In this document: positions 36,601 through 51,288 of the stretch, one piece after another
Layout: every line of letters begins with the position of its first letter
How positions within the stretch are numbered: position 1 is the first letter of the stretch
DNA from: Phycisphaerales bacterium
GTDB taxonomy: Bacteria; Planctomycetota; Phycisphaerae; Phycisphaerales; UBA5793
Assembly (NCBI GenBank): GCA_020852515.1
Contig: JADZAS010000016.1
Coordinates: 1 to 64,000, forward strand
Reading direction: 5' to 3'
Length of the DNA stretch: 64,000 bases
Translations under genes and position numbers: made by a program
The notes under the pieces: generated by a model
What the model saw: the letters and a program-made list of their open reading frames with translations, nothing else
Database searches by the model: none
Told to the model about the DNA's origin: nothing

Positions 36601-37329
36601 ATGCCAGCGACGCCGAAGCCGAACCGCGAACCGTCTGACGGAACTCAGGACAGAGCTGTCGTTCTGCTCTCAGGCGGACTCGACAGCGCCACGGTGCTCG
36701 CGATCGCGCGCCGCGACGGCTTTATGTGCCATGCGCTGAGCATCGACTATGGACAGCGGCACCGCTTCGAACTGGAATGTGCCGACCGGGTTGCCCGTGC
36801 GCTGGGCGCCATCGACCACAAAACAGTCGCCGTCGATCTGCGCGCCTTTGGCGGCTCGGCGCTCACCGCTGAAATCGATGTGCCCACGCATGAGCGCGTG
36901 GATGAGATTGGCAGCGCCATTCCTGTCACCTATGTGCCCGCGCGGAACCTCGTCTTGCTCTCGCTCGCCATCGCATACGCGGAGACACTGGGCGCCTCTG
37001 ACGTCTTCATCGGCGTCAATGCAGTGGATTACTCGGGTTATCCCGACTGCCGGCCGGCGTTCGTCAGCGCTTTCGAGAACGTGGCCAACCTCGCGACAAA
37101 GGCCGGCGTTGAAGGTCGGCGCCTGCACGTCAATACGCCGATTATCGAGATGAGCAAGGCGGAGATCATCCGCACGGGCACGCGCCTGGGCGTTGATTAC
37201 GCGCTGACGACCAGTTGCTACAACCCGCCGGCGCCGATGCTCGCATGCGGGCACTGCGATTCCTGCCTGCTGCGGCGGCAGGGATTTGAGCAGGCGCGCG
37301 TGCCTGACCCGACGCGCTATGCCGGCTGA
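36601..37329 (+). CDS. queC: 7-cyano-7-deazaguanine synthase
   Basis: 242 residues from the ATG at 36601. [17 protein letters not shown] is the PP-loop ATP site, [12 protein letters not shown] the conserved second block, and the C-terminus has [17 protein letters not shown], which with the Cys before it gives the four zinc ligands. It converts 7-carboxy-7-deazaguanine to preQ0 in queuosine synthesis. No queD, queE or queF is in the window and no preQ1 riboswitch is seen. The first ~18 residues are a non-conserved polar extension. The 3' end overlaps the convergent E1-alpha gene by 13 bases. Confidence 0.95.
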
Positions 37330-38417
37330 ACCTGGTCGCGCAGCGAAAGCGAATTCGTGCGCATTGTCTCGCGCTGCTCGGCGAGTGTCGCGGGCGGTTT
37401 GGCGAAGGTGTAGTTGAAGATGTCTGAGGCGTCCGGCTTGGCGATGCCTTCCGCGCGGGCGACCACTCCGCTGACGTGTTCCTTCGCACGGGCCTCGAGC
37501 GCCTGCTGCTTCGAATCGTCCCACGCGCTTTGCGATTGCAGGTACATTCGAAGGCGCGTCAGCGGGTCGCGCTTCGTCCACGCTTCGAGTTCCTTGGGGT
37601 CGCGGTAGCGCCTGGCGTCGTCAGCGGTGGTGTGATCGCCCATGCGATACGTCACGCCCTCGATGAACGTCACTTTGAAATCGTTGCGGGCCCGATCGAG
37701 CGCCTCGCGCACGACTTTGACGACGGCGAAGATGTCGTTGCCATCCACCTGCACGCAATGTGCCCCATAGGCGAGGCCGCGCTGGGCGACCGTTTCGCCG
37801 CCGACGTTGCGTTTGCGGGGCGTGGAGATGGCCCAGCCGTTGTTCTGGCAGAAGAAGACGACGGGCAGTTCAAGCGTGGTGGCGAAGTTCATCGCCTCGT
37901 GAAAGTCGCCCTCACTGCTGCCTCCGTCGCCAAAGAACGTGACAGCCGCTGAGCCGTCGTCGCGATACTTTCCGGCCCACGCCAGACCGCAGGCGTGGAG
38001 CATCTGCGTGCCGATGGGCACGGAGAGCGGCAGCGTCCGCATGCCGTCGGGGATCTTGTTGCCGCGCTCATCCCCCATCCAGTGCCAGAAGACGTACTCC
38101 ATGGGCAGACCGCGCCAGAACATTCCGGCGTTCTCGCGGTAGGCCGGAACGAACCAGTCGCGGTCGTCCATGGCATATGCCGCGCCAGTGCTGGTGGCCT
38201 CCTGTCCCCAGTTCTGCGGGTAGGTGCCCATGCGGCCTGAGCGCTGGAGTTTGAACGCGACCATGTCGTACTCGCGACAGATCGTCATGTGCTCGTAGAG
38301 CGCCACGGTGTCGTCGAGCGGAATGATGTCCTTGCCGAGTTTGGCGTCGAATTTGCCGTTCTCGTCGAGGATGGAAATGCGCTCGATGGTCGCGCTGTAG
38401 ACCTTCTCAACCGGCAT
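37317..38417 (-). CDS. 2-oxo acid dehydrogenase E1 component, alpha subunit
   Basis: 366 residues from the ATG at 38417 with GGGGAACGA before it; it overlaps the leucine dehydrogenase stop by 11 bases. The ThDP/Mg motif is complete: [19 protein letters not shown] to [31 protein letters not shown] is the phosphorylation-loop region and reads more like branched-chain 2-oxoacid dehydrogenase than pyruvate dehydrogenase. With leucine dehydrogenase directly upstream, oxidative decarboxylation of branched-chain 2-oxoacids is likely. The beta subunit, E2 and E3 are not beside it, so the complex must be completed by genes elsewhere. PdhA function cannot be excluded. Confidence 0.88.
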
Positions 38418-39483
38418 GAATCGTTCCCCGGGCCGGCTGGTTCGGAATGCCATTGTCGATCACGCTGCGAGCGTAGTCCACCGCTGCGGCATGGTTGGAC
38501 TGCAGCGTGCGCCCGCGATCGAGAATCTTGAGCGTGGTCGACTCGATGTCGGCGATCTTTCGCGCCAGTTGCTCGGCGGTGTACTCGAGCCAGAGTCCGG
38601 CGAGTTGGATCAATCCACCGGCGTTGACGACGAAGTCGGGGCAGTAGAGCACGTTGCGCGCCATCAGTGCGGATGAATCCTCAAACGGATCGTCGAGCAC
38701 GTTGTTGGCGGCCCCGCAGATGATGGGCGCCTGGATGTCGGCGATGTTGGTACCGTTGATTACGCCGCCCAGAGCGCAGGGGCAGAGAATGTCGCAAGGC
38801 GTGGCGAGGATGTGATCGACATTGACGACCTCAACGCCCAGCTGCTGCTTGGCGAGATCGAGGCGGTCTGGCGAGATATCGGCGGCTTTGACGCTGGCGC
38901 CCTCGCCGATCACGATCCGGGCCACATTCCAGCCGACGTGCCCCATCCCCTGAATGGCAATGGTCTTGTCCTTGAAGGTGGGATCCTGGCCGAGGAATCG
39001 CATGGCGGCGAGCATGCCGTTGACGACGCCGCGCGCCGTGTGCGGCGACGGATCGCCGCCGCGCGATTTCTTCTCGCCTCCCATGACAAAGCGGGTCTCT
39101 TCGGCCATCCAGTCAATGTACTGCTCATCGACTCCGACGTCTTCGGCGGCGATGTAGTCGCCGCGCAAAGTATCGACGGCGCGGCCCATGGCGCGGGCGG
39201 CGACCTCGCGCGGCTCGGCCCGGGCGGCATCGAGCATGATCACGCTCTTGGCCCCGCCCATGGGCAGGTGCGACACCGCCGCCTTGTAGGTCATCGCTTC
39301 GCTCAGGCGCAGCACATCCTCGAGCGCATCATCTTCGGACGCGTAATGCCATCGCCGCACCCCGCCCAGCGCCGGGCCAAGCGTGGTGCTGTGAATGGCG
39401 ATAATGGCGCGGAGCCCGGCGGGGCGATTCTGCACAAAGAGCACCCGCTCGTGTCCGCGATTGGCCATGCGTTCGAAGACCAT
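38407..39483 (-). CDS. Leucine (Glu/Leu/Phe/Val) dehydrogenase
   Basis: 358 residues from an ATG with GAGGAG at good distance. IHSTTLGPALGGVRRW is the substrate-binding start, and LSEAMTYKAAVSHLPMGGAKSVI carries the two conserved lysines. IAIQGMGHVGWNVARIV is the NAD-binding GxGxxG and CALGGVINGTNI and GAANNVL are late family blocks. Length and motifs fit leucine/valine dehydrogenase rather than glutamate dehydrogenase. It deaminates branched-chain amino acids to 2-oxoacids with NAD. Translationally coupled to the E1-alpha gene downstream, it feeds the next enzyme. It is one unit of the amino acid and acyl-CoA catabolic block that extends to 45.9 kb. Confidence 0.93.
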   Translation of the reverse strand: MVFERMANRGHERVLFVQNRPAGLRAIIAIHSTTLGPALGGVRRWHYASEDDALEDVLRLSEAMTYKAAVSHLPMGGAKSVIMLDAARAEPREVAARAMGRAVDTLRGDYIAAEDVGVDEQYIDWMAEETRFVMGGEKKSRGGDPSPHTARGVVNGMLAAMRFLGQDPTFKDKTIAIQGMGHVGWNVARIVIGEGASVKAADISPDRLDLAKQQLGVEVVNVDHILATPCDILCPCALGGVINGTNIADIQAPIICGAANNVLDDPFEDSSALMARNVLYCPDFVVNAGGLIQLAGLWLEYTAEQLARKIADIESTTLKILDRGRTLQSNHAAAVDYARSVIDNGIPNQPARGTIHAG

Positions 39484-39552: not shown

Positions 39553-41490
39553 CTAGGCGTTCCGGACCTGTTCACCAGTGAGCGATCCGCTGCCGAACTG
39601 CGGTATGCCGTCCTGCTTCATTTCGCGGCCGGTTCCGCGGGCGTTGGGCGACTTCTCCGGGATCGCGAACTGGTCGTTGGACAGGCCGTCGATGAACTTG
39701 CGGATCACGGGAATCGACGATCGCAGCGTCTCGTCGATGTTGTCGCGCAAGTGACGGATCTCGTCGCGAATCTGCAGGTCGGCGTGCTTGAGGAAGTAGC
39801 CGCCCGCGGCCATCTCGTATTCCACTTCGCCGGCGTCGTGGTTCGACCGCAGCGTGCGATCAAGCCGGCTGAGCACGGCCGCCGAGGCGTAGAGATAGAG
39901 GGCGCACATGCTCAGGCGCTTCTGGGTGCACTCGCGCGAGATGATCTTCTCCTCGTGCTCTTTCATCATGAGCTTGACCTGGTGCGAGAATTCGCGGACG
40001 TTGTTCTCGAACGTGGTCTGGTGTTCGACGAGTTGCGGGCTCAGGCGCGTGACCGAGGGAGCCGCCGACCGCAGGCCCAGGAACATCTCGGCGCCGATCT
40101 TCGTCGCTGCGCCCCAGAAGCCGGGCTTGAGCGCGTTGTCCTTGACATTGATGAGATACTCGCCGAGTTGCTTGCTGCCGTAGGCGAACACGAACGAGTG
40201 CATGACTTCGTTGGCGCCTTCGACGATGCTGTTGATGCGGCTGTCGCGCCAGATGCGCTCGATGTAGTTCTCGGTCATCTGCGACTCGCCGCCCATGACC
40301 TGCACGGCCCGATCGACGGTGCGGAAGCCCCACTCAGAGCAGAAGATCTTGCAGATCGCCGTTTCGAGCATCACATCCGGATCGTCGCGGTCGAGAATGC
40401 CCGTGGTGAGATAGAGCACGGCATCCATGGCGTAGACGAACGAAGCCATGTCGAGCAGGTACTCCTGCACGAGTTCGAAATCGCCGATGGGCCGGTCGAA
40501 CTGGAAGCGCGTCTGGGCCCACTTGCCGGCCTGGAGGTAGGCCGCGCGGGCGCCCCCGAGCATCCCGGCCGACAGCGTGCACCGGCCGTAGTTCAGGCAG
40601 GTCAGCGCGACGTTGAGACCGCGGCCCTCCTGGTGGAGCAGGTTGGCGCGGGGAACCTTGACATTGGTAAAGCGGATGCGCGCCTGCCAAGTGCCTCTGA
40701 TCGAGCACTTGCTGCGATTGCGGCTGAAGATGTCCACGCCGGGCATGTCGGGTGTGACGATGAGCGCGGTGACCTTCTCCTTGACCTTGCCGCTCTTGGG
40801 ATCGGTGATCGGCTGCTTGGCCATCACGGTAAACATGCCCGAGAGCGCGCCCGACGTGGCCCATTTCTTCTCGCCGTTGAGGATGTAGTGGCTGCCGTCT
40901 TCGCTCAGTCGGCAGGTCGTCTCCTGGCCGCCGGCGTCGCAGCCGACGTTCGGCTCAGAGAGGCAGAAGGCCGAAAGCATGTCGTTGGCCAGATGCGGCA
41001 GCCAGTGGCGCTTCTGCTCTTCACTGCCGTAGAGCACGACCGCCTTGCAGCCGATGGACTGGTGGGCGGAAACGAGCACGGCGGTCGAGCCGCAGCTCTG
41101 CCCGATGCGCTCAAGGGCGCGGTTGTAGCTGGTCACGCCGTATCCACCGCCGCCATACTCCTTGGGGATGATCATCCCAAGCACGCCGATCTTAAAGAGA
41201 CGGTCGATGCACCACTGCGGGATCTCCTGGTCACGATCGATTTGCACTGCCGGGTGTTCGTTCTTGAGGTAGTCGTCAAGTTCGGCGAGCAACTGGTCGC
41301 AGCGCGCGGTTTCCTCGGCGCTGACGGCGGGATAGGGAAACGCGAGTTCTTCGCGGATGTTGCCCCAGAAGAAGTTCTTGACCAGCCCCATGGTTTCGGG
41401 ATCGGGGCCGAGCATCTCCTCCGCCTGGCGGATCTGCTTGCGATCCTTTTCGGAGATTCCCTTCATGCTGCTCAACGAACTGGTGGCCAT
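39553..41490 (-). CDS. Acyl-CoA dehydrogenase, long form with C-terminal extension
   Basis: 645 residues from the ATG at 41490, with a strong AAAAGGAGC site; the extra upstream codons are not needed. Family blocks: YGGGGYGVTSYNRALERIGQSCGSTAVLVSAHQS, LSEPNVGCDAGGQETTC, GEKKWATSGALSGMFTV, then CLNYGRCTLSAGMLGGARAA, FDRPIGDFELVQEYLLDMA and QVMGGESQMTENYIERIWRDSRI. The ~200-residue C-terminal extension beyond the usual 380-residue core marks the VLCAD/ACAD9-like or MmgC-long type. It makes trans-2-enoyl-CoA with FAD. It sits between leucine dehydrogenase and the crotonase genes, so the substrate could be a branched or a long acyl-CoA. An electron-transfer flavoprotein must come from elsewhere. 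Confidence 0.93.
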   Translation of the reverse strand: MATSSLSSMKGISEKDRKQIRQAEEMLGPDPETMGLVKNFFWGNIREELAFPYPAVSAEETARCDQLLAELDDYLKNEHPAVQIDRDQEIPQWCIDRLFKIGVLGMIIPKEYGGGGYGVTSYNRALERIGQSCGSTAVLVSAHQSIGCKAVVLYGSEEQKRHWLPHLANDMLSAFCLSEPNVGCDAGGQETTCRLSEDGSHYILNGEKKWATSGALSGMFTVMAKQPITDPKSGKVKEKVTALIVTPDMPGVDIFSRNRSKCSIRGTWQARIRFTNVKVPRANLLHQEGRGLNVALTCLNYGRCTLSAGMLGGARAAYLQAGKWAQTRFQFDRPIGDFELVQEYLLDMASFVYAMDAVLYLTTGILDRDDPDVMLETAICKIFCSEWGFRTVDRAVQVMGGESQMTENYIERIWRDSRINSIVEGANEVMHSFVFAYGSKQLGEYLINVKDNALKPGFWGAATKIGAEMFLGLRSAAPSVTRLSPQLVEHQTTFENNVREFSHQVKLMMKEHEEKIISRECTQKRLSMCALYLYASAAVLSRLDRTLRSNHDAGEVEYEMAAGGYFLKHADLQIRDEIRHLRDNIDETLRSSIPVIRKFIDGLSNDQFAIPEKSPNARGTGREMKQDGIPQFGSGSLTGEQVRNA

Positions 41491-41562: not shown

Positions 41563-42525
41563 TCAATCCGATCGATTCGGCGAAGTCAATGACGCGCCGA
41601 GGGTCTCGTCAGCATATCGCGCCAACGGCGCGCTTGAAAGTCGGCGGGCAAGCGAGCGGCCGAACGCGGCAACGAGCGCCCGGCGAAGGAGGGATCGATC
41701 CTCCAGCAATCCGTCGTTCAGAAGCGTTGCTGCGGCCTGCATGGCGCTGTGTAAGAAATATCCCTCCCGCACCCCCGCCGCAATAAGGTCATTTCCGCAA
41801 TTCGCCGCGAACGCCGCTGAGAGTTCGTCAGACGCGTCTGACGCGTAGATGCTCTCGATGCCAACCGCTTGCTCAGCGCGACCAAACGCCTGAGCCAGCC
41901 GGCGCAGCCCGATGCGATCGATCTCGCGAAGCGGCGACCAGGGCAGTTGAGCCGCACGCGCGGAGCGATCCACCTCGGCCGGTCGGCCGGTCCGTCTGGC
42001 CAGGTTCCAGGACTCGATCAGGACGCTGCCCTGCAGGCGCGTCAGCGCGCTGGGGCCGCCGCCTTGCTCGACCAGCACGCTCCAGCCGGCTTCGCGAGCG
42101 AGGCCCCAGGCCGTCTGCCGCGTCGCTTCGCACGTTTTCGGGCCGGGAATGATTTCGCATGTACTGGCGTGTGCGGTCCATGGCGGCACAAGGCTGATGA
42201 GCCGGGCCGGATGGGTGACGCTGCCGGCGATCTCGCCATGGGCGAGAACCGGGGAGGTGGAGATGATCACGGCGTCGTCGGGCGCGATGGCGCTGATGGC
42301 CCGCAGGGCTGCGAGCTGCTCGTAGCGCGCCTCGCCGGCGGCCTCCATGTAGATCGCGCCGGCCGGGGCCGGACTCGCGTCGTCCGGCGATGCGAATCGC
42401 CAGTGCCCGGCGAGCGCGCGCCTGAGCAATTCCGCCCGGGCGCCGCAGCCGGCGAGAACGATGCAATTCGGGTTCACCCCCGATCGGTCGCACCGTGTCT
42501 CGAGCCGCTCGCCGTGGGTGTTCAC
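41563..42525 (-). CDS. Divergent 3-hydroxyacyl-CoA dehydrogenase-like protein, probably degenerate
   Basis: About 320 residues from the GTG at 42525, with a perfect GGAGGAATC before it; the longer frame is antiparallel to the crotonase gene. PNCIVLAGCGARAELLRRAL is a Rossmann-like start with GCG in place of GxGxxG. SAIAPDDAVIISTSPVLAHGEIAGSV matches the NTSSL...EIA region. ARLISLVPPWTAHASTCEIIPGPKTCEATRQTAWGLAREAGW resembles the ..HFFNP...EVI.G..T......A...GK segment, but the catalytic His-Phe-Asn-Pro is replaced by VPPWTAH. A C-terminal helical domain is present. Seen in an operon beside a canonical paralogue (45075-45938), it may be a non-catalytic partner or a decaying copy. Confidence 0.65.
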   Translation of the reverse strand: MNTHGERLETRCDRSGVNPNCIVLAGCGARAELLRRALAGHWRFASPDDASPAPAGAIYMEAAGEARYEQLAALRAISAIAPDDAVIISTSPVLAHGEIAGSVTHPARLISLVPPWTAHASTCEIIPGPKTCEATRQTAWGLAREAGWSVLVEQGGGPSALTRLQGSVLIESWNLARRTGRPAEVDRSARAAQLPWSPLREIDRIGLRRLAQAFGRAEQAVGIESIYASDASDELSAAFAANCGNDLIAAGVREGYFLHSAMQAAATLLNDGLLEDRSLLRRALVAAFGRSLARRLSSAPLARYADETLGASLTSPNRSD

Positions 42526-42547
42526 GATTCCTCCGCTGCTTCTGGCC

Positions 42548-43306
42548 TCAATCGCCCGCACCGAACAGTTTGCCGAGGCGGGTGAGCGCTTCCTCGCCCT
42601 GGACGATCTCCGCGGAGATGCGCGCGGCCTTGTCGAGGACGTCATCCTCCATCGAGCCGTCGAGTTCGTTGAGCCAGTTCTTGGTGACCGCCATGGCGCG
42701 CGGGCCGCCCTTTGCCAGCGCTGCAGCGAACTGAAGCGCTTCGCTCTCAAGCGACTCACGGTCGACTAGGTGCGTGATGAGACCGAGTTCGAGCGCGCGC
42801 TGACCGGCCATGGTCCCGCCCGCGAGCAGGACCTGCCTCGCGCGACCAGAGCCAAGTTTGCGCACCAACCATGGCGCAACAACCGCAGGGCACACGCCGA
42901 GATCGACTTCGGGATAGCCGATGCGCGCTTCGGCGTGGCTGAACGCGAAGTCGCAGACCGACATGAGACCGCAGCCGCCCCCCACCGCCGCACCCTGCAC
43001 GCAGGCGATCGTGGGCTTGGGCGCCCGGCGGATCTCGCGCAGCAGCAGACTGATGAGCATGAGCAGTTCGCCCATTGCCGGCGGGTCCTTGAGCAGGGCC
43101 TTCAGATCCATCCCGGCGCAAAACGCCTTGCCTTCCCCGCTGATGATGATGACGCGCACGTCTTCGGAGGCGGCGAGCGGCGCCAGCGCCTGCCGCGCTT
43201 CGCTGAGTAAGTCTCTGCTCAGCGCGTTTCGCGCCTCGGGGCGATAGAGGCGCAGCTCGGCAACGGCGCCGTTTTCGTGCTGAATGACTTGAACCAGATC
43301 GGACAT
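42548..43306 (-). CDS. Enoyl-CoA hydratase/isomerase family protein (crotonase fold), copy 1
   Basis: About 252 residues from the ATG at 43306, chosen because MSDLVQVIQHENGAVAELRLYRPEARNAL is the typical family start; three further in-frame starts lie within the previous 48 bases. IISGEGKAFCAGMDLKAL and VQGAAVGGGCGLMSVCDFAF form the oxyanion hole. Of the two catalytic Glu of classical hydratases, the first (GGGCE) is Gly here, while the second is present in GYPEVDLGVCP. It therefore may be a hydratase with a single acid/base, or an isomerase or another crotonase. It is followed after 22 bases by the divergent dehydrogenase-like gene. Confidence 0.87.
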   Translation of the reverse strand: MSDLVQVIQHENGAVAELRLYRPEARNALSRDLLSEARQALAPLAASEDVRVIIISGEGKAFCAGMDLKALLKDPPAMGELLMLISLLLREIRRAPKPTIACVQGAAVGGGCGLMSVCDFAFSHAEARIGYPEVDLGVCPAVVAPWLVRKLGSGRARQVLLAGGTMAGQRALELGLITHLVDRESLESEALQFAAALAKGGPRAMAVTKNWLNELDGSMEDDVLDKAARISAEIVQGEEALTRLGKLFGAGD

Positions 43307-43354
43307 GCGGGCCATTCTAGGGGTCATGGGCGCGACACGAAACCGCAACGACAC

Positions 43355-44119
43355 TCAGCGAAGATCGCGCCGAAGGCTCCAGAACGCCTGCACGAGGCGC
43401 TGAGCCTCCGGCTCGACGGCCGCCGCAGCAGAGGCCGCGGTAGACCGCTCAAACGGCGCATCTTCGAGCGAGCCGTCGAGTTCACTGATCCACCGCTTGG
43501 TGGCTCGCAGCGCGACCTGGCCCTTGCCGGCCAGTGACTCGCACAAGCGCCGGGCCGCATCATCGATTCCCGTCCCGGCATGCAAGAGGTGCGAAACCAG
43601 CCCGAGCCGCGCTGCCTCAGCCCCGTCGATGATCTGGCCGCCCATGAGCATCGAGCGACAGCGACCGTCGCCGATCAACTGCCGCAACGTGGGAATGCTC
43701 ACGGCGGGCGACACTCCGATGCGATGCACGGGATAGCCGAACTGCGACTGCGGCGAAGCGACGACGAAGTCGCACGCAGACACGATGGCGCACCCGCCAG
43801 CCAGCGCGGCGCCCTGAACCGCGGCCACCACGACCTGAGGCACGCGGCGCAAAGCGCGCGCGATGGCGCCAAGTTGCTCGATGTACCGCCCCATGAGACC
43901 CGGCTGAGCAACCGCGTCGGCGAGATCGAAGCCAGCGCAGAACGAGGGGCCGTTGCCGCGGAGAAGCACGACGCCCCCATCGCCGGAGGCGATTTCCTCG
44001 AGCGCATCGATCATGCGGCTCATCATCCCGGACGTCAGCGCGTTGCGCTGCTCGGGTCGATTCAGCGTGAGAACGCTTACTGTGCCGGACAGATCGACAT
44101 CAACGAGATCGGCGGCCAT
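43355..44119 (-). CDS. Enoyl-CoA hydratase/isomerase family protein (crotonase fold), copy 2, lacking both catalytic Glu
   Basis: 254 residues with the usual start TVSVLTLNRPEQRNALTSGM. The oxyanion-hole blocks are GNGPSFCAGFDLADAV and VQGAALAGGCAIVSACDFVV. At the two catalytic positions the sequence has GGCA (expected GGGCE) and FGYPVHRIGVSP (expected FG.PEV.LG), so neither acid/base Glu is kept. The fold and CoA site should be intact. It might catalyse a reaction that needs no such Glu, or be regulatory. It sits immediately before copy 1, with which it shares only moderate similarity, so they are old paralogues. Confidence 0.85.
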   Translation of the reverse strand: MAADLVDVDLSGTVSVLTLNRPEQRNALTSGMMSRMIDALEEIASGDGGVVLLRGNGPSFCAGFDLADAVAQPGLMGRYIEQLGAIARALRRVPQVVVAAVQGAALAGGCAIVSACDFVVASPQSQFGYPVHRIGVSPAVSIPTLRQLIGDGRCRSMLMGGQIIDGAEAARLGLVSHLLHAGTGIDDAARRLCESLAGKGQVALRATKRWISELDGSLEDAPFERSTAASAAAAVEPEAQRLVQAFWSLRRDLR

Positions 44120-44152: not shown

Positions 44153-44983
44153 TCAACTCGTGGTGAGGCCGGCTCCCAGTTTGAAGGCCGCGAGCAGGCC
44201 GATGCCGATGAAAACGATGTCCAGAACGCCGAAGGTCGACTTGAACACATACCAGAAAACGTCGTTCCACGCGCTCGCGGTTACGGACTGCGAATACTCG
44301 ATGAGTTCGGCGATGTGCTGCTCTCGCCCCGCATCGTCGAGCCCTTCCCACCGTGCGGTTGCTTCCTTCCAGATTTCCGTCGGGTAGTGTTCTTCGCGTT
44401 CGGCGTACTCCGGCTCCTGCCCTCCCGGCCAGCGGATGGTCTTGCCCGACTCGTTCCACTCCTCAATCACGCCGTTCGCGATGCTTGAGACTACGAAATC
44501 CGGATTGGCCAGCGCCGGACAGGCCATGATGTTCGCCCGCTCGTGCGGCGCGTACGTCGCCCAGCGCTCTTCCGCCTGCCGCCACAGTTCGGGCGGGTAA
44601 TCCTCGCTCCCGACCGCCTCGTCGGGGACGACACCTGTCGGAAAGATGTAGTTGCGGCCTTGGCGCGAGTGTTCGTAGAGAATCTGGTCGGCGACGCAAC
44701 TGATCGCGACTTCTTCATCCGGCCCCAGCCGGCCGAGGGCGGCATAGGTCATGGCCATCTTGCCGCCGATGATCGCCGCCACGGCAAATGCCGCGGCGAT
44801 GGCGCCCGACTCGGCTCCGGCCTCATCCTTGGCCGCCGCCTGGCAGGCGATGCCGACCACACTGCCGATGATGATGGCGATCCAGCCGATCTCAAGGTGC
44901 AGGTAGTAGCCGATGATGCCCCAGAGCGCGGCGCCCAGCGCCGCCGCAATGAGACCCGATATCACGACCGGTGCGTACCTCAT
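44153..44983 (-). CDS. Hypothetical membrane protein
   Basis: 276 residues from the ATG at 44983, with GAGAGGAGGCGC just upstream. Hydrophobic segments: APVVISGLIAAALGAALWGIIG, GWIAIIIGSVVGIACQAA, GAIAAAFAVAAIIGG near the N-terminus, and LDIVFIGIGLLAAFKLGAG at the C-terminus, with about 150 hydrophilic residues between. The soluble part is acidic and Trp-rich and has a repeated look (YPPELWRQAEERWATYAPHER and YPTEIWKEATARWEGLDDAGRE), which may be two copies of one helical motif. I do not recognise the family, though similar proteins occur in planctomycetes. It splits the acyl-CoA catabolic run, so its presence there may be chance. Confidence 0.75.
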   Translation of the reverse strand: MRYAPVVISGLIAAALGAALWGIIGYYLHLEIGWIAIIIGSVVGIACQAAAKDEAGAESGAIAAAFAVAAIIGGKMAMTYAALGRLGPDEEVAISCVADQILYEHSRQGRNYIFPTGVVPDEAVGSEDYPPELWRQAEERWATYAPHERANIMACPALANPDFVVSSIANGVIEEWNESGKTIRWPGGQEPEYAEREEHYPTEIWKEATARWEGLDDAGREQHIAELIEYSQSVTASAWNDVFWYVFKSTFGVLDIVFIGIGLLAAFKLGAGLTTS

Positions 44984-45074
44984 GCGCCTCCTCTCAGGAT
45001 GATGAGTCATCCAAGGCTGCGGCACAAGATAACAGAGCCCGGCTTCGCTGTCCAGCAAAAACTATGGAATGAGC

Positions 45075-45938
45075 CTATTTCTTTCCGTAGTCAAAAACGC
45101 CCCGGCCGCTCTTGTCGCCAAGCCGCCCGGCGGTCACGAGTTGGCGAAGTCTCGGGCACGGGAAGTACTTCTGATCGCCCAGTTCGTGGTACAGGACCAT
45201 CATGATGTCGTGGCACACGTCCAGGCCGATGAAGTCGGCCAGCCGCAGCGGACCCATGGGGAAGTTGCAGCCGAGTTTCATGATCTCATCGACGTGCTCG
45301 GGCTCGGCCACGCCCTCCATCCAGGCATAGAAGGCCTCGTTGATCAGCGGCATGAGCACGCGGTTGCTTACAAAGCCGGCGCGATCGTTCGCTGGAACCG
45401 GTGTCTTGCCCATCTTCTGCGCCAGGGCGATGGTGCGGGCGGTCGTCTCTTCGCTCGTCGCCAGGCCTTTGATGACCTCGACGAGTTTCATGACGGGCAC
45501 CGGGTTGAAGAAGTGCATACCGATGACGCGCGGCGCGTGCGCGCCGACGGACGCGGCGATCTGCGTGATCGAGATCGATGATGTGTTGGTCGCCAGCACG
45601 ACATCGGACCGAAGTACCTCGACCATCTGGCCAAACACGGTCTTTTTGAGGTCGGCCTTTTCGAGCACGGCTTCGACTGCCCAGTCAGCCTCGCGCGCAT
45701 CACTCAGGCTCGTGGTGTAGGTGAGGCGCTCCATCGTGGCGTCGGCCTCGGCCTGCGTCATGCGCTGCTTTTCGACGTTGCGGCCGAGGATCTTCTTATG
45801 GCTCGCCAGGGCCCGGTCGAGCACAGGCTGGGCCACATCAACCTGAAACGCCAAAAGGCCGCTCATCGCAGCGGTGAGCGCGATGCCCGAGCCCATGGTG
45901 CCGGCGCCGATGACCACGATCGATTTCACTTCGCTCAT
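45075..45938 (-). CDS. 3-hydroxybutyryl-CoA / 3-hydroxyacyl-CoA dehydrogenase
   Basis: 287 residues from the ATG at 45938 with GCGAGGACGAC ahead. IVVIGAGTMGSGIALTAAMSG is the NAD fingerprint; TNTSSISITQIA and VIGMHFFNPVPVMKLVEVI carry the catalytic His and the conserved Asn-Pro; FVSNRVLMPLINEAF and GCNFPMGPLRLADFIGLD form the C-terminal domain. It oxidises (S)-3-hydroxyacyl-CoA with NAD. It is the canonical partner of the divergent copy at 41563-42525 and starts the catabolic block. A thiolase is not found in this window. Confidence 0.95.
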   Translation of the reverse strand: MSEVKSIVVIGAGTMGSGIALTAAMSGLLAFQVDVAQPVLDRALASHKKILGRNVEKQRMTQAEADATMERLTYTTSLSDAREADWAVEAVLEKADLKKTVFGQMVEVLRSDVVLATNTSSISITQIAASVGAHAPRVIGMHFFNPVPVMKLVEVIKGLATSEETTARTIALAQKMGKTPVPANDRAGFVSNRVLMPLINEAFYAWMEGVAEPEHVDEIMKLGCNFPMGPLRLADFIGLDVCHDIMMVLYHELGDQKYFPCPRLRQLVTAGRLGDKSGRGVFDYGKK

Positions 45939-46029
45939 TGTCGTCCTCGCTTTTGACATTTGGGCGACACTGTATCAACGGCTCACAGGGGCCGCAACCG
46001 GGTCAACTTCCTCGATTTGGGCAGGACGG

Positions 46030-47715
46030 TCAGCGGAGTTCGGGCACATCGGGAACCACCGGTTCCCAGCGCACCTGGGCCGATCCGAGCAGCGTGCCCG
46101 TCGCAAAGGCGATATCCACCTGAGCGATCTGGTACTCGGCCAGGGCGCGGATCTCGGCGCTGCGGGCATTGGCGTACCTGGCCTGGGCGTCGAGCACGTC
46201 CGTGGACGTGCGCAGGCCGAGGTCAAACTGGCGCTGCTCGGCCTCAAGCAGGCGGGCTTCGAGCAATGCGCTGCGTCCCGCCGCGAGCACGCGCTGCCAG
46301 TTCGCGTCCAGTTGATCCAGCGCGTTGAAGACTTCGTTGATGATCTGCGCCCGCCGCTGCTCTTTCGTCGCCAGCCGCTGCACGCGCTCGTACACGGCCT
46401 GGTTGTAGCGGCTGATCGCGGCGGCATTGCCCAGCGGCACCTCGACGCTCAGGCCGACGATGTGATCTTCGAAATTCTTATCGCCAAGCACATCAAATGA
46501 GTCGCCAAACGAGGCGCCCAGACCGTTGACGTTGTAGCGATAGTCCAGCGTGACCAGCGGCAGCTTCTGATTGCGGGCGAAATCGATGCTGCTCGAATCC
46601 TGCGCGATGAGCAGTTCGAGTTCGAGCATCTCCATGCGCGAGTCCAGCGCGTTGTTGGCCAGTTCAATCGGTTCGAGTTCGTATCGGATCGGGTTCGGCT
46701 GCGTCGCCAGTTCGATCACCGTCGGCGTCTCCATGCCCAGCCCCGGCTTGTTAAGCACGCGCTTGAGCAGCCGCTCGGAATCGCGCACGGCATTCTGGGC
46801 GATGATGATCGCCTCCACGCGCTGCGCGACGCCCGCCTCGGCCCGCACGATCTCGACCTCGGCTGCATCGCCCGCCTTCACCCGCCGCTGGGCCCGCTGC
46901 AACTGAGCCACGGCCAGGTCGTACTCCTGCTCGTGCACCTCGAGTTCGCGCTGCGCTGCGTACAGTCGCCAGTACACGCGATCGACGTCCGCCACGACGC
47001 GGATTACTTCCAGTTTGGTCCGCGCTTCGCTGATCTGCGACTGGTAGATCGCCACGCGGATCGCGTGCGTGTTCGTTCGCACGCCGGCGTTGCGAAGCAG
47101 CGGCTGGCTGATCGAAGCAGAGAAGTCGGATGAAAAGGACGGATTGAGCGTCGCGAACTGGTTGTCGGTCTCGGTGCGATTGAGCGGCAGATCGAGCGTG
47201 ATGATCCCGCCGGTGTGCAGCGGAATGCGCACGCCGACGTCGCCGTTGAGCGATTTGACGCTCGATCCGTTCAGACTCGTGTCGGTCGGCTGATCGAAGA
47301 CGGACTGGCGGATGTTGGCAAAAAAGAGCGACTCGAACCGGGCTTCCTCTTGCGTGATGTTCTCGCGCGTGATCGTGGGATTGAGCAGCGCGACGCCCAG
47401 GTCGAGGTTGTACTGCAGCGCCAGGGCGCGGCACTCCTCGATCGAGAGGGACAGCACTTCGGCCGCCTCGCTGGGCTCGTCGAGCGCCGGCGGGCGCTGC
47501 GCGAACGCCTCGCGCGCCTCTTCCACCGTCTGCGACGACCTGGCCAGGTCGGGGAGTCTGAGCGGCTCGATGGAGCGCAGGCGGTCGGGATCGATCGTCA
47601 CGCGCGGCCGGCCGTCGCGCAGCAGGCTGTCGCAGCCCGCGATGGACACAGTGGCCAGGGCGAGCAGGACGAGGCAGGCGGCGCGCAGCCGCCGCAGCAC
47701 AACCGGTTCATTCAT
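46030..47715 (-). CDS. TolC-family outer membrane efflux lipoprotein
   Basis: 561 residues from the ATG at 47715, which overlaps the permease stop by 8 bases. A lipoprotein signal ends in ATVSIAGC. Two OEP repeats follow: the first includes LNPTITRENITQEEARFESL and GGIITLDLPLNRTETDN..., the second QRLATKEQRRAQIINEVFNALDQL and QFDLGLRTSTDVLDAQARYANA. Long coiled-coil helices and beta segments alternate as in TolC. It should be the outer-membrane channel for the MacA/MacB-like pump encoded just upstream. It is the last gene of that operon. Confidence 0.92.
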   Translation of the reverse strand: MNEPVVLRRLRAACLVLLALATVSIAGCDSLLRDGRPRVTIDPDRLRSIEPLRLPDLARSSQTVEEAREAFAQRPPALDEPSEAAEVLSLSIEECRALALQYNLDLGVALLNPTITRENITQEEARFESLFFANIRQSVFDQPTDTSLNGSSVKSLNGDVGVRIPLHTGGIITLDLPLNRTETDNQFATLNPSFSSDFSASISQPLLRNAGVRTNTHAIRVAIYQSQISEARTKLEVIRVVADVDRVYWRLYAAQRELEVHEQEYDLAVAQLQRAQRRVKAGDAAEVEIVRAEAGVAQRVEAIIIAQNAVRDSERLLKRVLNKPGLGMETPTVIELATQPNPIRYELEPIELANNALDSRMEMLELELLIAQDSSSIDFARNQKLPLVTLDYRYNVNGLGASFGDSFDVLGDKNFEDHIVGLSVEVPLGNAAAISRYNQAVYERVQRLATKEQRRAQIINEVFNALDQLDANWQRVLAAGRSALLEARLLEAEQRQFDLGLRTSTDVLDAQARYANARSAEIRALAEYQIAQVDIAFATGTLLGSAQVRWEPVVPDVPELR

Positions 47716-48960
47716 GACGGAGAGCCTCGATGGGATCAAGTCGAGCCGCTTTGATGGCCGGAAACATGCCGAACACCACGCCCACCAGCGCGGCGAAGCC
47801 GAACGAAAGCAGCATGGCCCAAAGAGGAATGCGGGCCTTTTCAAGATTCGCCGCCGTCACGAGCACCAAGGTGATGCCCCACCCAGCCGCCAGCCCGAAC
47901 AGGCCGCCCAGGAAGCAGAGCATGACGGCCTCGACGAGGAACTGCAGCATGATCGCCGACGGCCTCGCCCCGACCGCCTTGCGCAGGCCGATCTCGCGCG
48001 TGCGTTCGGAGACGGACACCAGCATGATGTTCATGATCCCCACGCCCCCGACAACCAGCGAAATCGCGACGATGCCGAAGGCGATCAGGGAGATGACGAA
48101 TGACATCTTCTGAAACGAATCGATGACATCCTGCATGGCCGCGACGCCGAAGGTGTCAGGGTCCTGGGGCTGCAGGCGCCGCGTCTTGCGCAGCAGTGCC
48201 CGCAGTTCCGCCATGGCGTCCTGCGAGACATCCGGCGACTTGCTGGCCGCCATGACCTGCATCCAGCCGTCGCCCATTCGCCAGGACGTGCTGAACGGAA
48301 TGAACACTTCGGCCCGGGAATTGGAGCCGTCAAACCCGAACGCCGACTGCGGATTCGGTTCGACGAGCCCGACCACGGTGAAGCGCCGGTCGCTGATCAG
48401 AATAGACTGACCCGTGCAGTCGCGGTCCAGCCGCAACTGATCGCGCAGATCAGTCGAGATGATGCACACCTGCTCGAATCGCTCCTGATCGGTGACGGAA
48501 AATGGGCGGCCGATCGTGACGTAGCGATTTTCGATGGTGTGCCAGTCGGGTTCGATGCCGGTGATGCGCGCTCCGTCGAGCACCTTGTCGCCGTAGCGGA
48601 TGTCGCCGCGCACCTCCTGCATGCGCGTCAGCGCCTCAATGCTCGAGCACTCCTGCTTCCAGCCGTCGAACTGGTCGGGCTGAAAGCGGATGACGCGCCA
48701 CGAAGCGTTGGCGAAGCGGCCGCTCTCAGGTCGATCGGGCCAGACGAAAATCTTGTTGGTGCCAAGCGTCTGAAACTCGTCGAGCACGAACGTCTTGAGC
48801 CCGGTGAGCGCCGAGATGACTGCGGTGACCGCGCCGACCCCGATGATGATGCCCAGCGTCGTGAGGATGGAGCGGAGTTTGTTGGCCCAGATCTGGCCGG
48901 TCGCCAGGGCCATGCTTTGCAGGAGAAGACGGAGCAGTGACAGAGGCCAAAGCAGCATGG

Positions 48961-48964
<4 letters not shown>
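47708..48964 (-). CDS. MacB-type ABC transporter permease (FtsX/MacB core)
   Basis: 418 residues, with an ATGA overlap to the ATPase gene. [30 protein letters not shown] is the N-terminal MacB helix, followed by a periplasmic domain with ~200 residues. Three C-terminal membrane helices are [54 protein letters not shown] and [39 protein letters not shown]. The [14 protein letters not shown] and DPIEALR motifs are diagnostic. In E. coli MacB the ATPase and permease are fused; here they are separate. It is a mechanotransmission-type exporter of peptides, lipids or toxins. Confidence 0.94.
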
Positions 48965-49797
<833 letters not shown>

Positions 49798-49809
49798 GCT
49801 CTGGCGGGC

Positions 49810-51288
49810 TCAGCCGCCGCCCTCCGATGCACTCGTGGCGGACGCGCCTGAAGTTTCATCCTCGCTCGCCTTGCCGCTCTCTGCGCCGTTCTGCTTCGCC
49901 TTGTCCTTCTCCTGCTTGCGTTCCTTCTCGAGTTTTTCCTGCTCCACGATGCGCTCGTCCTTGACCGCCTGGTCGTGCGTGAGCGATTCAAAGACGCGAT
50001 ACGGGCCCACGATGACCTGGTCGTCTTCGTTGAGCCCCGAGAGAATGACCGTGTCGGAGGCGTCGCTGGCGCCAATCGTCACCGGCGTCACCACTGCCTT
50101 GCCGTCCTTGAACCGGTACACCACCGTCGCCACGCTCTTGGTCATATCCACGTCGGGATTATTCTCGCGGATGCTCAGCGGAATGTCATCCACGGGGCGG
50201 GCGAGCACCGACTGGCTGGGCACTTTGATGACGTCTTCGTGGCGCTTTGTTTCGATTTCGACATCGGCCGTCAGGCCGGAATAGATCTGCGCGCCGTGCG
50301 TGTCGAGCAGGATCTCGGTCTTGTAGTACTTCGAGCCGTCCTGGGCCATGTCGTTGGTCAGCGCCACGGCTCGGACCTTGCCCGAGAATTCCTCGCCGGG
50401 ATAGGCGTTGATGCGCACCTTGGCCTGCTGCCCGACCTTCACGCCGCCGATCGACGCTTCGTCCACCTGGGCGTTGAGCAGCATGACCGAGAGGTCCGCC
50501 ACCTCGAGGATGACGGTGCCGGCGTTGTTCATCGTGCCGGTAACGACCAGTTCGCCGACCTCGGCGTTGAGCCGCGTGACGGTGCCGCTGATGGGCGAAG
50601 AGATGGTGGTGTAACTCAGGTCATCGCGCGCCTGCTCGATCATCGCATCTGACGCCAGCAGGTTGAACTCCATGACCTTGAGGTTCAGTTCATCGGCTCT
50701 GAGCGACTGCTCCTGGGCGAGCAGGTTCGCTTCGAGCTGCTCCACAGTGGAACTGGCCAGATCGACCACAGACTGCGCGACGTCGTGGGTGGCCAGCAGA
50801 TCGCTGTTACGCTTCAATTCGAGTTTGGCCTGCGCCAGTGAGGCTCGCGACGCGGCGAGTGACGCCCGCGAACTCTCCAGCCGGGCCCGTTGGACTTCGA
50901 TGCTCGCGGCGTCGGCGGCGCGGCGGGCTTCGGCGGCTCTGAGGTTCGCTTCGCGATCCGTTGAATCGAGTTTGACCAGCACCGACGCGGGAATCGGCGG
51001 ATCGGCATCCGGGTCGCCCTTGGTCACCTCCTGCCCTTCTTCGAAAGGCAGGGCGGTGATGCGGGCGGAAAGCTTGGCGCTGATCTCGACTTTCGTTTCC
51101 GGCTCGATCTCTCCGGGCGCTTTGATCGTCTCGACAAGCGTGCCGCGCGACGGGTGGGCCAGGCGGACGACTGTTCCTTCCTTCTCGGGCATGCGCTCGC
51201 GGACTTGCCGCACCGCCGCCGGCCCGAGCAGCGCGCCGAGCCCGACCAGGATCGCCAATGTCACTCCGACGATGATGAAAACGCGCAC
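49810..51288 (-). CDS. MacA/HlyD-type periplasmic adaptor (membrane fusion) protein
   Basis: 492 residues from the GTG at 51288, with GGAGAG in front. A single N-terminal membrane helix (VFIIVGVTLAILVGLGALLG) is followed by a lipoyl-like half (LAHPSRGTLVETIKAPGEIEPETKVEISAKL), a long coiled coil of about 100 residues with Ala/Leu/Ser heptads, the second lipoyl half (LSYTTISSPISGTVTRLNAEVGELV), a beta-barrel and a membrane-proximal domain (ASDTVILSGLNEDDQVIVG). The last ~45 residues are Lys/Glu-rich, then a Ser/Gly tail. It links the inner-membrane pump to the TolC-like channel. First gene of the four-gene export operon. Confidence 0.93.
   Translation of the reverse strand: MRVFIIVGVTLAILVGLGALLGPAAVRQVRERMPEKEGTVVRLAHPSRGTLVETIKAPGEIEPETKVEISAKLSARITALPFEEGQEVTKGDPDADPPIPASVLVKLDSTDREANLRAAEARRAADAASIEVQRARLESSRASLAASRASLAQAKLELKRNSDLLATHDVAQSVVDLASSTVEQLEANLLAQEQSLRADELNLKVMEFNLLASDAMIEQARDDLSYTTISSPISGTVTRLNAEVGELVVTGTMNNAGTVILEVADLSVMLLNAQVDEASIGGVKVGQQAKVRINAYPGEEFSGKVRAVALTNDMAQDGSKYYKTEILLDTHGAQIYSGLTADVEIETKRHEDVIKVPSQSVLARPVDDIPLSIRENNPDVDMTKSVATVVYRFKDGKAVVTPVTIGASDASDTVILSGLNEDDQVIVGPYRVFESLTHDQAVKDERIVEQEKLEKERKQEKDKAKQNGAESGKASEDETSGASATSASEGGG

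Follow-up and report, generated by a model that had tools for sequence, protein, structure and literature searches.

Lost catalytic residues in three adjacent acyl-CoA genes of a Phycisphaerales bacterium call for three explanations

The window analysed here, a stretch of 64,000 nucleotides from an uncultured Phycisphaerales bacterium (assembly GCA_020852515.1, contig JADZAS010000016.1), carries on its minus strand three adjacent genes for acyl-CoA enzymes with missing catalytic residues: two crotonases, referred to below as crotA and crotB, and a dehydrogenase-like protein, HAD-like. The crotonase fold is a textbook case of a fold that keeps its oxyanion hole while swapping catalytic groups. 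The three frames were confirmed where the initial annotation had placed them, and so were the losses listed there, namely both classical Glu in the first crotonase, one Glu in the second, and the HFFNP motif and a standard GxGxxG in the dehydrogenase-like protein. The residue losses are real and the three genes need three explanations; treating them as one story could not be upheld, crotA and crotB being sister paralogues and HAD-like a separate fusion relic. The relatives named below are metagenome assemblies of Planctomycetota and Phycisphaerae, and the genomes used are mostly in many contigs. The main features are as follows (dN/dS, ratio of nonsynonymous to synonymous substitution rates):

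43355..44119, minus strand: crotA, crotonase lacking both catalytic Glu (Ala111, Val131 instead); Pfam ECH_1 134.7 bits, clade, dN/dS 0.17-0.43
43787..43789, minus strand: crotA codon 111 (Ala), first Glu slot, from alignments; position counted from the start at 44119
43727..43729, minus strand: crotA codon 131 (Val), second Glu slot, from alignments; filled in the clade by V, T or A and by no acid
42548..43306, minus strand: crotB, one-Glu crotonase (Gly113, Glu133) of the 1UIY/3I47/AtuE kind; alignment, tree, dN/dS 0.08-0.22
41563..42525, minus strand: HAD-like, apparently a degenerate orphan dehydrogenase (C-terminal) half of a trifunctional-enzyme alpha chain; Pfam, profile, Foldseek, fold match and a fused homologue in genome G005

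In the alignments, crotA was found to carry Ala111 and Val131 where two-Glu hydratases have Glu/Glu, at slots which we take to be Glu144 and Glu164 of the rat hydratase. Its Pfam ECH_1 score lay far above the cut-off of 27, placing it in the crotonase superfamily, and its Ala/Val pair set it outside the two-Glu enoyl-CoA hydratase class. The crotA rows formed one clade (support 96 in one tree and 98 in another); in the second tree none of its 24 rows had an acid at either slot, the first being filled by A or G and the second by V, T or A. The clade was sister to crotB with a support of 96. The alignments and trees show the two to be sister families from one old duplication, the trees being quick ones with few references (three one-Glu chains, one of which, 4ZU2, sits on a long branch).

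The rest of the crotA core was then compared column by column. Gly108, presumably the Gly of the oxyanion hole, was present in all 10 rows picked by similarity and in all 50 rows chosen by motif. Six columns (64, 107, 111, 119, 131 and 137) were at least 90% fixed in crotA and different from crotB; since the 50 rows had been picked by the motif GGCA...G[YF]PV, their invariance at 111 and 131 was imposed by the choice, and all six columns were invariant also in the ten rows picked by similarity. F64, A107 and S137 were thus nearly fixed in crotA, unlike in crotB. These alignments show that crotA has lost the catalytic acids and kept the rest of the crotonase core. His132 was considered as a general substitute base and rejected, as it was H in 41 of the 50 rows and T, L or V in the others. 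Among the PDB matches of crotA were 5DTW and 3HE2. Relatives in three families of the order lacked the same residues, a pattern beyond chance, and on this sequence evidence crotA is a conserved family of its own and not a product of decay. As a side observation, relatives of crotA and crotB with Gly/Ala, Gly/Pro and Gly/Thr at the slots were seen in G016 (L182:1489-2487), G437 (L184:1441-2220) and G008 (L183:1456-2250), respectively; these are possibly independent losses of the second Glu.

Selection was estimated by the NG86 method over five genomes of the window's genus (ten pairs); many pairs had dS above 1, and the closest pair, the window and G004, was the cleanest. In this pair dN/dS was 0.17 for crotA, 0.10 for crotB and 0.23 for HAD-like, and across the genus the ranges were 0.17-0.43 (ten pairs), 0.08-0.22 and 0.23-0.57, respectively, HAD-like being the highest of the genes compared. 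The comparison genes, a 3-hydroxybutyryl-CoA dehydrogenase (HBD), an acyl-CoA dehydrogenase and an amino acid dehydrogenase, gave 0.035-0.17. Bootstrap upper limits were at most 0.73 for HAD-like and 0.61 for crotA. All three frames were open in each of the five genomes, that of the window included, and the stops flagged inside a frame in G004 were confined to its C-terminal end. A Ka/Ks test for decay, as suggested in the initial annotation, was thus carried out, and with values well below 1 decay was not borne out. When crotA of the closest pair was taken in four segments, the minimum, 0.08, fell on codons 81-160, which hold the emptied active site. Judged by these ratios, genus-wide and lowest over the emptied site, the active site of crotA is maintained and not rotting, and the HAD-like half, at 0.23-0.57, is loosely constrained, yet not free.

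To follow crotA through the order, a DNA motif for its Ala/Val form was used; other slot types exist, so that the counts are lower bounds. Of 251 genomes of the order, 137 had the motif; they belong to three (f1, f2, f3) of the six families sampled, and each had it at one place except G335, which had two. A reversed-motif control matched in one genome. In a sample of the phylum it occurred in 11 of 343 genomes, all 11 inside this order. Every one of the 30 motif places that were fetched lay in an open frame matching the crotonase profile, the frame of L139 being cut by the contig end. It is clear from these counts that crotA rarely stands without crotB: crotB (E≤1e-58) was detected in 133 of the 137 motif genomes vs 44 of the 114 genomes without the motif (Fisher 1.6e-26, uncorrected for relatedness).

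A profile search of 23 motif-less genomes served as an unbiased check against circularity of the motif. Ten had a gene of the crotA clade, with A/T, A/A, A/V or G/V at the slots and never an acid; an eleventh, in G387, was added by eye from the alignment. At least 11 of the 44 motif-less crotB genomes therefore carry a crotA that the motif had missed, and crotA without crotB was found in none of the 23. Some tree rows represent the same gene (L173/L193, L171/L198), and weaker matches without a locus were left unclassified except those of G387 and G008. In 15 of the 30 motif loci a further crotonase open reading frame was present on the same strand within the fetched flank, 12 with a clear G,E motif; L132, L140 and L147 had a partial second crotonase that was left unclassified, and in L155 and L156, which are outside the 15, the second crotonase was on the opposite strand. 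Nine genomes, in which crotA was alone in the flank or which had been chosen for spread, all had crotB nearby or elsewhere, 52-58% identical.

A short-chain fatty acid transporter lay directly upstream of crotA in several genomes, as PF02667 by Pfam in L010-L013 and L126 (coordinates L010:4527-5924, L013:2984-4615 and L126:5270-6670 for three of them); tblastn showed it also in L014 and L015 and, among the 30 motif loci, in five (L130, L145, L148, L149 and L151). Together with the co-occurrence, these transporter neighbours point to a functional tie of crotA to crotB and to short-chain acyl-CoA.

crotB had Gly113 and Glu133 at the two slots, so that one Glu was missing. The same Gly/Glu pair was found in the solved chains 1UIY, 3I47 and 4ZU2, which joined crotA and crotB in the tree with an SH-like approximate likelihood-ratio support (SH-aLRT) of 93, and in 28 of 29 rows of the crotB clade, the exception being Gly/Thr in G008, from another family of the order. 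With 163.2 bits against ECH_1 (cut-off 27) crotB belongs to the crotonase superfamily, and with G/E instead of Glu/Glu it is outside the two-Glu class; slots and tree position are those of one-Glu hydratases of the LiuC/AtuE/1UIY kind. crotB is therefore probably an ordinary one-Glu hydratase, a single Glu being, by these alignments, what its family normally has. In G005, crotB was seen split across two frames (L020:11119-11866), the frameshift being either genuine or one of the assembly.

The HAD-like protein was barely detected by Pfam (3HCDH_N, 22.8 bits; cut-off 22). Val replaced the His of HFFNP, Pro the Ser, Thr the Asn and GxGxxA the GxGxxG, Glu was kept, and a gap stood at the expected ADP-ribose-binding acid. 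Ser, His, Asn and the last Gly of GxGxxG were lost in all six rows of its family and Glu was retained in all six, whereas Ser, His and Asn were intact in 8/8 rows of multifunctional enzymes (MFE). Without GxGxxG and the catalytic Ser, His and Asn it does not qualify as an active 3-hydroxyacyl-CoA dehydrogenase. Its predicted structure (mean predicted local distance difference test, pLDDT, 77.9) had trifunctional alpha chains as best Foldseek matches, and residues 18-308 fitted residues 324-718 of the trifunctional enzyme (TFE) alpha chain, the whole HAD half, with Z 24.4 and a root mean square deviation (rmsd) of 3.3. In a sample of the class (248 genomes), seven of the eight best profile matches outside the family lay in loci with crotonase and HAD similarity; the eighth (L067, G056) was a plain HBD by tblastn. 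In the tree the clade had a stem of 2.98 changes per column and its neighbours were unresolved, so that the MFE origin rests on fusion, profile and fold. By its predicted fold HAD-like corresponds to the dehydrogenase half of the alpha chain of a trifunctional enzyme and appears inactive, and it stands apart from the sister pair crotA and crotB as what is left of a fused multifunctional enzyme; scaffold or relic is all that can be said of its role.

The slot occupied by HAD-like was then compared between families. The sister families f2 and f3 supplied 20 loci in which the acyl-CoA dehydrogenase had crotC, a two-Glu crotonase 288-386 residues long, beside it; in 13 of the 20, crotB was on the other side of crotC (1.5-kb flanks). 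crotC grouped with the crotonase halves of some fused multifunctional enzymes (support 100). At the same slot, G005, of the sister genus, had a 647-residue fusion of a two-Glu crotonase and the same degenerate HAD half (L020:8839-10782), the crotonase half of which joined crotC with a support of 94. In the window HAD-like was a separate gene, and the crotonase half was absent from the slot in the window's genus. A third crotonase was probably part of the ancestral arrangement; as read from these loci, one slot holds a two-Glu half in some lineages, a fusion in one and a dead HAD half in another.

That HAD-like is a functionless relic on its way out, with crotA slowly decaying as well, would fit the top dN/dS of HAD-like, the divergence of its copies in the four other genomes of the genus (82, 59, 46 and 41% identical to that of the window), the long stem of its clade and its marginal Pfam score. 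We consider it improbable, as the frames are open in 5/5 genomes of the genus, the bootstrap upper limits of dN/dS are those given above, W116, C123-E124 and G157-P158-S159 are invariant in 6/6 HAD-like rows, and the crotA motif is widespread in the order.

Around these genes the window carries the following features:

45075..45959, minus strand: HBD, canonical 3-hydroxybutyryl-CoA dehydrogenase with HFFNP and GxGxxG intact; Pfam, residue alignment
44153..45058, minus strand: conserved hypothetical, probably a membrane protein, likely start ATG at 44983; between HBD and crotA, with matches in G003, G004 and G005
39553..41490, minus strand: acyl-CoA dehydrogenase with a C-terminus of ACAD9/ACADV type; Pfam, dN/dS 0.035-0.16
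38407..39483, minus strand: Glu/Leu/Phe/Val-type (ELFV) amino acid dehydrogenase; profile searches
37317..38453, minus strand: E1 alpha subunit of a 2-oxoacid dehydrogenase; TIGR03181 427.4 bits, cut-off 411.35

On the minus strand the order was HBD, hypothetical gene, crotA, crotB, HAD-like, acyl-CoA dehydrogenase, ELFV-type amino acid dehydrogenase and E1 alpha, and it was kept in the four other genomes of the window's genus, bar the hypothetical gene, for which no match was found in the loci of G001 or G002. The hypothetical protein had a weak PHO4 similarity, under the cut-off. The tight spacing noted in the initial annotation was borne out: crotB follows crotA after 48 nt and HAD-like follows crotB after 22 nt, with 72 nt from HAD-like to the ATG of the acyl-CoA dehydrogenase (41490). 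Its good ribosome-binding sites were found for one gene only: among the three, a clear Shine-Dalgarno sequence (GGAGG) preceded HAD-like, and none was obvious upstream of crotA or crotB. An alternative GTG start of crotB was seen at 43354, immediately past the crotA stop. Upstream of the operon (46030-51288), the translations resembled an outer-membrane efflux protein, a MacB-type permease, an ABC ATPase and an HlyD-type protein.

Pfam ECH_1 found four crotonases in G000, namely crotA, crotB and two on contig 25 in a second beta-oxidation-like cluster. As the two others sit in that cluster, crotB is likely the hydratase of this operon. The second cluster (L125:6988-16349) held a two-Glu crotonase, a crotonase with Ser/Phe at the slots and a 3-hydroxyacyl-CoA dehydrogenase, and farther on a thiolase-like gene and E1 alpha- and beta-like genes, as seen from translations and, for E1 alpha, one tblastn match.

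A more specific assignment would make crotB, with crotA, a 3-methylglutaconyl-CoA hydratase (LiuC) of leucine breakdown, crotA acting in a branched-chain side step. crotB does group, with a support of 93, with AtuE and with 3I47, which we take to be LiuC-like, and genes for an amino acid dehydrogenase and E1 alpha adjoin. However, crotB reached 133.7 bits against a cut-off of 426 with the gamma-carboxygeranoyl-CoA hydratase equivalog NF004227, and none of the 25 models listed attained its cut-off; the acyl-CoA dehydrogenase is of the ACADV/FadE kind and not clearly an isovaleryl-CoA dehydrogenase, and 1UIY of the same group was deposited as a plain enoyl-CoA hydratase. We therefore regard LiuC as an unlikely identity.

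For crotA itself, the reading we put forward, at somewhat less than an even chance, is that of a non-hydrating partner of crotB that binds short acyl-CoA, with HAD-like at most structural. In an acyl-CoA pathway, crotB would hydrate an enoyl-CoA that is short or branched, a role suggested by the adjoining genes for HBD, acyl-CoA dehydrogenase, amino acid dehydrogenase and E1 alpha. crotA would still bind short acyl-CoA, being unable to hydrate it, and the two might assemble in the manner of PaaF and PaaG, with trimers that are mixed or stacked; crotA would then hold or hand over the thioester, or tune crotB, and HAD-like could at most be a structural subunit (lid or scaffold) left from the old fusion. 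The variation of the second slot among V, T and A argues against a single replacement catalytic group. A non-hydrating partner is favoured also by rat MFE1, of which the variant with the second Glu changed to Ala is described with enoyl-CoA bound and not hydrated (PMC10988713), and, as models, by the hetero-complex of PaaF with PaaG and by BoxC, whose second crotonase domain is empty of an active centre (PMC4498308).

The rival reading, to which we give an appreciable though smaller chance, is that crotA is a working enzyme with other chemistry, an isomerase, decarboxylase, retro-Claisen enzyme or thioesterase on short acyl-CoA for example. Its oxyanion hole would stabilise an enolate or thioester intermediate, with proton transfer via water, via an exogenous anion as in type I MenB, or via a residue such as Ser137. 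The strong constraint on the active-site segment in the closest pair, the near fixation of F64, A107 and S137 and the transporter next to crotA in several genomes would all agree with this. Against it, no alternative side chain is fixed, the second slot being V, T or A and the next residue H, T, L or V. For comparison, one alignment row was taken to be MenB-like, an identity we assume. MenB (1,4-dihydroxy-2-naphthoyl-CoA, DHNA-CoA, synthase) of type I is a precedent for such chemistry, as bicarbonate takes the place of the usual base (PMC3637252); a further point against the rival is that its Asp163, described as essential for catalysis in the E. coli enzyme (PMC3637252), aligns with Pro138 of crotA. 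The present data separate the two readings poorly, other chemistry being almost as likely as a non-hydrating partner.

Several observations weigh against the non-hydrating partner. Ser137 was near-invariant (49 of the 50 motif-chosen rows), which suits a catalytic role equally well, and the crotA model had a pLDDT below 50 at residues 131-146 and 148-159, which made the side-chain geometry of the active site unreadable. The co-occurrence statistic ignores phylogeny. Four genomes with the crotA motif (G011, G353, G480 and G532) had no crotB at the chosen threshold; this may be a threshold effect, because congeners of G011 and G532 barely pass the limit (1.5e-62 to 1.9e-59). Conversely, among the 23 genomes searched by profile, crotB was present without a detected crotA in at least four, G005, G008, G265 and G350 (two weaker matches of G265 were unclassified), so crotB can do without crotA. 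In some relatives crotA lies apart from crotB, and the gene order there implies no co-assembly.

A wider form of the non-hydrating partner, which we hold only tentatively, would have crotA as a single-copy pseudoenzyme in three families, derived from a duplicated one-Glu hydratase and acting only with it as an acyl-CoA-holding subunit, and in addition a fused hydratase/dehydrogenase that split in one family, one genus keeping only the dead half. The initial annotation had taken all three proteins to be probably expressed, and possibly to form a pathway with different chemistry or a complex with pseudo-enzymes; this stands for crotA, more weakly for HAD-like, and fails for crotB, whose one Glu is usual in its family. 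crotA is a natural case, in three families of one order, in which both acids are gone and the surroundings are under selection, and its near-constant co-occurrence with crotB makes cause and effect testable in one protein pair. It would reveal a metabolic pseudoenzyme pair or else a crotonase chemistry that is new and does without acidic side chains at the usual slots; in the open-access literature no crotonase described as a pseudoenzyme was found. crotA and HAD-like are also a warning for annotation, as their profiles name active-enzyme families, yet the residues for the named reactions are missing.

Among known systems, the one-Glu crotonases (T. thermophilus hydratase 1UIY, 3I47 and AtuE, 4ZU2) are the closest to crotB, having the same Gly/Glu and falling in the same group, whereas crotA, of the same branch, has lost the remaining Glu too. 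EchA6 of M. tuberculosis, which we take to be a non-hydratase acyl-CoA carrier that binds without hydrating, would resemble crotA; it is actinobacterial and serves mycolate synthesis, and we know of no partner pair of the crotA-crotB kind for it. PaaF and PaaG, which form a hydratase-isomerase hetero-complex, are likewise two crotonase paralogues of one pathway, one with a reduced Glu set (PMC4498308); PaaG, however, has one Glu and is an active isomerase, whereas crotA has none. According to the same source, the second crotonase domain of BoxC and the second Rossmann domain of PaaH are kept without an active centre, as are crotA and HAD-like, but those dead domains are fused to an active half and crotA and HAD-like are separate genes. 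Type I MenB differs from crotA by the Asp163 column, which would set crotA outside that type. HAD-like, compared with the alpha chain of TFE/MFE, is without the crotonase half, the NAD motif and three of the four catalytic residues, and it has the same fold as the HAD half of that chain over the whole half (Z 24).

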